The position numbers and the translations under genes were made by a program. From Bordetella parapertussis (GTDB lineage: Bacteria > Pseudomonadota > Gammaproteobacteria > Burkholderiales > JACQAP01): a stretch of DNA of 64,000 nt. Shown one piece after another: positions 39,725-39,935 of the stretch (within the stretch, counting starts at the first letter, position 1; each line of letters opens with the position of its first letter). Location: the NCBI GenBank assembly GCA_945900965.1, contig CAMDKM010000010.1, positions 1-64,000 on the forward strand, read 5' to 3'. A model generated the notes under the pieces. The model had not been told where the DNA came from. It did no database searches and saw only the letters and a program-made list of their open reading frames with translations.

Positions 39725-39787
39725 TTCTCCTGCTCTGGCCATGTCTGCGCCTGGTCGCACAAATTGGGGGGATGGTAAAAAAGCACC

Positions 39788-39935
39788 GTTCGCATCAGAA
39801 CTTTTCCCGTGTTTGGGGTTCTGACGAACCAGACAGTGATGTCTCCCGCTTTTCCTCCCTGAGCGGGCGCCTCGATGCAAATCGAGGCTTGGTTTGCCCC
39901 CGGCTCGAATCCCCTTCCAGCCGGGGGTTTTTTAT
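39788..39935 (+). ncRNA. Candidate structured small RNA with intrinsic terminator (hemB-engB gap)
   Basis: No gene is coded here on the plus strand, yet four consecutive stem-loops end in a textbook terminator. Hairpin 1 (39788-39829): GTTCG and TCAGAAC pair with GTTCTGA and CGAAC around a CA bulge. Hairpin 2 (39845-39867): CCCGCT/AGCGGG with loop TTTCCTCCCTG, complementary to Shine-Dalgarno sequences. Hairpin 3 (39869-39888): an 8-bp stem with GCAA tetraloop. Hairpin 4 (39897-39927): CCCCCGGCT/AGCCGGGGG with a C-rich loop, then six T. An extended -10 TGG-TAAAAA (39773-39781) would start transcription at about 39788. Hairpin 1 plus an A-run could also serve minus-strand transcripts. Function and family unknown to me. 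Confidence 0.6.

Follow-up and report, generated by a model that had tools for sequence, protein, structure and literature searches.

Which transcript ends at the strong intrinsic terminator that lies on the plus strand between hemB and engB of the window, that is, of the whole 64,000-nucleotide stretch of DNA analyzed here? Both neighboring genes are encoded on the minus strand, and therefore the terminator at 39896-39933 belongs to no protein gene, as the original prediction had noted when it placed a structured small RNA (sRNA) in this gap. An Rfam match and covariation in the stems bear out an sRNA gene with its own terminator, presumably acting in trans, and the RNA is genuine, a small regulatory RNA that belongs to the already catalogued anti-hemB family. 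New here are the corrected boundary of the gene, its proposed control by an RpoE-type sigma factor, and a link to the Pseudomonas sRNA ErsA that was not found in the open literature. The features of the locus are as follows.

38717..39724, minus strand: hemB, divergent from the sRNA, start codon at 39724 (from translation and tblastn)
39788..39829, plus strand: inverted repeat, the hairpin 1 of the original prediction, overlapping the promoter and not conserved as a hairpin
39798..39824, plus strand: predicted RpoE/AlgU-type (ECF02) promoter, with −35 GAACTT at 39798-39803, a 16-base spacer and −10 TCTGA at 39820-39824
39831..39935, plus strand: predicted mature sRNA of 105 nt, the anti-hemB/ncS04 homologue, its 5′ end placed from the promoter
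39831..39844, plus strand: hairpin A at the 5′ end of the RNA, 5 bp (AGACA-GUGA-UGUCU), outside the Rfam model and not listed in the original prediction
39842..39935, plus strand: match to Rfam RF02837 (anti-hemB) over the full model, 1-81, at 74.7 bits against a gathering cut-off of 49.5
39845..39867, plus strand: hairpin B (hairpin 2 of the original prediction) with the anti-Shine-Dalgarno loop UUCCUCCCU, from loop conservation and stem covariation
39869..39888, plus strand: hairpin C (hairpin 3 of the original prediction) with a GCAA loop, from compensatory changes in 7 of 8 pairs among 29 sequences
39896..39933, plus strand: intrinsic terminator (hairpin 4; stem-loop 39896-39928) with the C-rich loop CCCCUUCC and six T, from the fold and a terminator scan
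39958..40557, minus strand: engB (yihA), convergent with the sRNA, stop codon at 39958 (from translation and tblastn)

The identity of the RNA comes from the covariance search against Rfam that had been proposed together with the original prediction, and which returned RF02837 at the score listed above. Matches were found in 50 of 60 relatives, which come almost entirely from different families within the same order; 45 exceed the cut-off, most genomes have one strong copy, and the named matches belong to Burkholderiales/Betaproteobacteria; hemB and engB both flank the sRNA in 23 of 30 fetched loci. In Burkholderia cenocepacia, the family member ncS04 is an RNA of 105 nt, characterized by RACE mapping of its 3′ end, Northern blots and Hfq co-purification, and its gene lies in the orientation <- -> <- (PMC5688073, PMC4603805). 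Given the RF02837 match and the ncS04 data, the window RNA is therefore an already known kind of RNA, and its predicted transcript, starting near 39831, would have the same length as ncS04. Our own covariance model R2, in which the window sequence is among the building sequences, covers 39826-39935 in a cmsearch at 90.3 bits (E 2.4e-23); a weak R2 match elsewhere in the window, at 54815-54910 on the minus strand (14.2 bits), is within the noise of the control loci.

The region 39773-39940 folds at −74.3 kcal/mol (z = −5.95, none of 200 shuffles being as low), and the four plus-strand stem-loops that had been described from the sequence, with the strong terminator and its six T, the GCAA loop of the third hairpin, and in the second a loop UUCCUCCCU complementary to Shine-Dalgarno sequences, are all present. 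Compensatory stem changes among relatives, whose absence had been named as a possible refutation, were found for hairpins B, C and the terminator. Standard pairs fill 96.2% of the pair cells in 29 betaproteobacterial sequences, and 15 of the 25 pairs have changed on both sides, with 8 of 10 pairs of the terminator hairpin showing compensatory changes, while none of 500 shuffles reached any of five measures and sliding the partners destroyed the signal. The loop bases CCTCC of hairpin B are invariant in all 29, and in a set of 62 sequences its stem is 98.1% paired, 6 of its 7 pairs having changed on both sides. When Gammaproteobacteria are included in this way, 24 of 25 pairs covary, in an alignment that leans toward the structure because it was fitted to the model. 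The stems of these three hairpins are more than chance. As for hairpin A, 52 of 53 relatives have a perfect stem of 4 bp or more at this place, and each position shows several types of pair; for comparison, a stem of at least 5 bp arises in 11% of shuffles.

The promoter was recognized by its conservation. The pattern GAACTT-N16,17-TCTNA has a single match in the 64-kb window vs 0.14 expected, and the aligned upstream regions of relatives share GGAACTT, 16-17 bases, and TCTNA at a fixed distance. When up to one mismatch was allowed in the −35, 44 of 143 loci had the promoter, against 0.6 for shuffles and 1 for the reverse strand, two of the 44 sitting about 65 bases too far upstream and probably being chance; with at most two mismatches of 11 and at the fixed distance, it was present in 39 of 45 loci from the genome search vs 18 of 900 shuffles. 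One copy of the sRNA (locus L013) has a perfect site with neither hemB nor engB nearby, which assigns the element to the sRNA rather than to hemB. Related promoter sites are also found at gammaproteobacterial copies beside polA.

Elements of this kind point to an RpoE-type sigma factor, and the genome of the window encodes a clear RpoE (327 bits). The same elements stand upstream of rpoH in 17 of 30 genomes vs 0.43 expected from shuffles, and in the betaproteobacterium Bordetella bronchiseptica, SigE transcribes the promoter of its rpoH homologue (fam) in vitro (PMC3490749). The autoregulated rpoE promoter failed as a positive control for the motif, which was found in the upstream region of rpoE in 0 of 30 genomes, and rpoH was used instead; the rpoH of the window's own genome has no good site. 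Genome-wide, the strict motif was not in excess in 18 genomes (36 sites vs 50 in the reversed control), and a regulon built on it was rejected; nine of these 36 sites belong to this sRNA and three to rpoH. In the open literature searched, we found no promoter type assigned to anti-hemB/ncS04 and no link of anti-hemB to RpoE or ErsA. At some rpoH loci (e.g., L224, L226, L242 and L245), the RpoE-type promoter overlaps an inverted repeat, TTAGCACTC...GAGTGCTAA, whose resemblance to the CIRCE element of HrcA suggests that envelope and heat stress together control rpoH.

The promoter has turned over within the Betaproteobacteria. Among 142 betaproteobacterial loci, in counts that are limited by genus-biased sampling and by unequal locus lengths (about 3 kb vs up to 8 kb), 69 have the RpoE-type promoter, of which 53 have both hemB and engB nearby; the other 73 include 5 with both genes and 49 with hemB alone in the fetched stretch, and the sequences upstream of these 73 are closer to sigma70 hexamers. 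The named loci of this second kind are largely from Variovorax, Hydrogenophaga, Ramlibacter, Limnohabitans and similar Comamonadaceae, with TTGaaa/TTAAAT-like promoters and copies mostly away from engB. Given the many Comamonadaceae copies with sigma70-like promoters, sigma-E control is therefore not universal.

Several further copies and look-alikes were recorded. Tandem copies of the sRNA occur at L030 (1358-1458 and 1502-1609) and L013 (1323-1430 and 1502-1607), as well as at L255, L258 and L268; several genomes have two copies each, and G229 and G321 have four. Locus L054 (contig CAMDRJ010000108.1), labelled as a Klebsiella pneumoniae MAG, has a betaproteobacterial-type copy with the RpoE-type promoter, and its assembly is probably mislabelled or contaminated. 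The window's own genome holds a second candidate sRNA (L347 1015-1085, G000:C27:28214-28284), in which a hairpin with a GGUCCUCC loop is followed by a strong terminator and which matches RF02837 below threshold (27.4 bits), and also a weak RF02837 match without the CCUCC loop (L346 995-1058, G000:C52:6594-6657; 29.3 bits), probably a look-alike hairpin-terminator pair.

A wider search covered 274 genomes drawn from the class, of which 124 match at E <= 0.001 and 14 pass the Rfam cut-off. The 28 gammaproteobacterial loci that were fetched include full-length copies with a CCUCCCUG hairpin, and these copies have the C-terminus of PolA upstream, a convergent engB downstream (polA -> sRNA -> <- engB), and GAACTT-type promoters; model R1, for which betaproteobacterial sequences alone were used, detects a copy in all 28 (35-68 bits). 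This is the arrangement in which ErsA of P. aeruginosa is known, a sigma22-dependent and Hfq-assisted sRNA of 132 nt in the polA-engB gap that represses algC and oprD (PMC5819304, PMC8575079, PMC8395346, PMC6321483). In G220, the first Pseudomonadaceae genome, the polA-sRNA-engB arrangement was not seen, and 28 further Pseudomonadaceae engB loci were obtained afterwards. Among them we find TGAACTT-N16-GTCAGA, and the transcript predicted from this promoter is 132 nt long, as published for ErsA; by position, promoter and length, we take them to be ErsA. R1 matches 13 of the 28 at 16.5-26 bits, with at most 12.5 in 232 kb of control loci, and R2 matches 16 at 21.5-35.3 bits, with at most 17.7 in the controls. 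Since the CCUCCC hairpin is missing from ErsA and the terminator contributes part of the score, shared descent of ErsA and anti-hemB is likely rather than proven.

Taken together, we consider it probable that the locus encodes a 105-nt, Hfq-type anti-hemB RNA that is transcribed by RpoE under envelope stress, blocks ribosome-binding sites with its loop, and is the betaproteobacterial counterpart of ErsA. Envelope stress would release RpoE, and the RpoE-type sigma factor would then transcribe the sRNA from GAACTT-N16-TCTGA as far as the terminator at 39896-39933. Held by Hfq, the RNA would pair through its exposed UUCCUCCCU (CCUCCCU) loop with purine-rich ribosome-binding sites and lower the translation of chosen mRNAs, and the terminator loop CCCCUUCC may perhaps pair likewise. 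RpoE-type control together with the position beside engB would make this RNA the betaproteobacterial counterpart of the sigma22-dependent ErsA. The pairings predicted for CU-rich sRNAs in B. cenocepacia are likewise concentrated at ribosome-binding sites (PMC5688073). In four congeners, perfect complements of the loop stand before ATG at 56 sites vs 6 in the reversed control, as expected for Shine-Dalgarno sequences, and the genes found by this search at start codons are of mixed functions, with no porin/outer-membrane set and no single pathway among them. In three congeners (L362, L367 and L384), a gene for a small, apparently secreted protein keeps AGGGAGGAATCATG, the complement of the loop core, at its start codon and is a possible target, judging from this complementarity.

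Other explanations differ from this reading in the extent of the RNA, its sigma factor, or its mode of action. The original prediction joined all four hairpins in one transcript of 145-160 nt, beginning near 39788 from an extended −10 (TGG-TAAAAA), and the local fold does include hairpin 1. We regard such a transcript as extremely unlikely: hairpin 1 is absent from three congeners, where the equivalent stretch has z of −0.3 to +1.0 and the promoter elements inside it are kept, and the B. cenocepacia RNA is of 105 nt. Hairpin 1 was thus rejected as a part of the RNA and holds the promoter instead, from which the start is now predicted at about 39831, and TGG-TAAAAA was rejected as a −10, as it has no conserved counterpart and no sigma70-type promoter was found on the plus strand of the hemB-engB gap. 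The same null result bears on the proposal that the 105-nt RNA is made constitutively by sigma70, with RpoE making no use of the GAACTT/TCTGA elements. The Comamonadaceae promoters, the motif-free rpoE and the level of ncS04, which is unchanged under biofilm, starvation, osmotic, acid and low-iron conditions, with no dedicated envelope stress among them (PMC5688073), all speak for constitutive transcription, but the ECF elements are conserved at fixed spacing and recur before rpoH, and we judge it unlikely.

It has also to be asked whether the RNA is a cis element of hemB, as its name would imply, pairing with an engB-hemB read-through mRNA or with the hemB 5′ leader. The RNA lies opposite the engB-hemB gap and hemB is close in most betaproteobacterial loci; however, the sRNA begins upstream of hemB, at a distance of about 107 nt from the start codon, and is transcribed away from it, and copies without hemB (L013 and the gammaproteobacterial loci with polA) keep the structure, the loop and the promoter, which makes a hemB element very unlikely. 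Somewhat less improbable, though still quite unlikely, is a general anti-Shine-Dalgarno RNA of the toxic kind of RF02278, which would damp bulk translation and growth rather than act on chosen mRNAs. ncS27 of the RF02278 family slows growth (PMC5688073), and the CCUCCCU loop, the terminator hairpin and a sub-threshold match of 23.5 bits (E 0.016) all fit such an RNA, yet this score is below the gathering score of 50, the window RNA has two further hairpins, and most genomes have one strong copy. The targeted, RpoE-dependent anti-hemB RNA is the reading that we retain.

So far the anti-hemB family has been catalogued with neither its regulation nor its function known. Its sequence context suggests that it is switched on by damage to the outer envelope, like the Pseudomonas sRNA at the same place, a suggestion for which we found no precedent, and the conserved RpoE-type promoter and the locus shared with ErsA give it a testable role as the RNA arm of the betaproteobacterial envelope stress response. 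The 3′ side of engB would then have housed stress sRNAs for a long time, a point relevant to the origin of ErsA. A broader scenario, to which we give an even chance, is that anti-hemB, its gammaproteobacterial relatives and the Pseudomonas ErsA go back to a single ancient sRNA gene for envelope stress next to engB, whose product would be the general RNA under sigma-E control in Beta- and many Gammaproteobacteria, and that in Comamonadaceae the gene left engB and acquired a sigma70-type promoter in place of the original one.

Among the closest known systems, ncS04 of the anti-hemB family shares with the window RNA the three hairpins, the CCUCCCU loop, the terminator, the gene orientation and, by prediction, the length, a difference being that the Rfam model of anti-hemB lacks the 5′ hairpin at 39831-39844. 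The toxic small RNA of Betaproteobacteria (RF02278) shares the CU-rich anti-Shine-Dalgarno loop and the terminator hairpin, but has two hairpins where the window RNA has four. MicA and RybB of enterics are, to our knowledge, unrelated to the window RNA in sequence or location, and the likeness is one of regulation, by analogy only. Both are sRNAs made from sigma-E promoters, and they reduce protein synthesis through base pairing with mRNAs (PMC8103513), and no betaproteobacterial counterpart of either was found in the literature searched.

The remaining comparisons concern the place beside engB, where the original prediction had pointed to Spot 42 and ErsA. Spot 42 (spf) of enterics has the same place and orientation (polA -> spf -> <- engB/yihA), but its match of 15.8 bits is at noise level (control maximum 17.7) and RF00021 gave no match in the Rfam scans of the window; homology to Spot 42 was thus rejected. 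The hint gains substance for the other RNA, with homologues between polA and engB in Gammaproteobacteria and ErsA loci scoring above the controls. ErsA differs in having polA and not hemB on the other side, in its length (132 nt vs the predicted 105 nt), and in a U-rich single-stranded stretch (domain II), absent from the window RNA, in place of the CCUCCC hairpin B. The similarity is weak and rests on the two 3′ hairpins, the promoter and the locus: both RNAs adjoin a convergent engB, follow an ECF02-type promoter, and end in a hairpin and a terminator with a C-rich loop, and the pairing at ribosome-binding sites by which ErsA acts would be expected of the window RNA as well.
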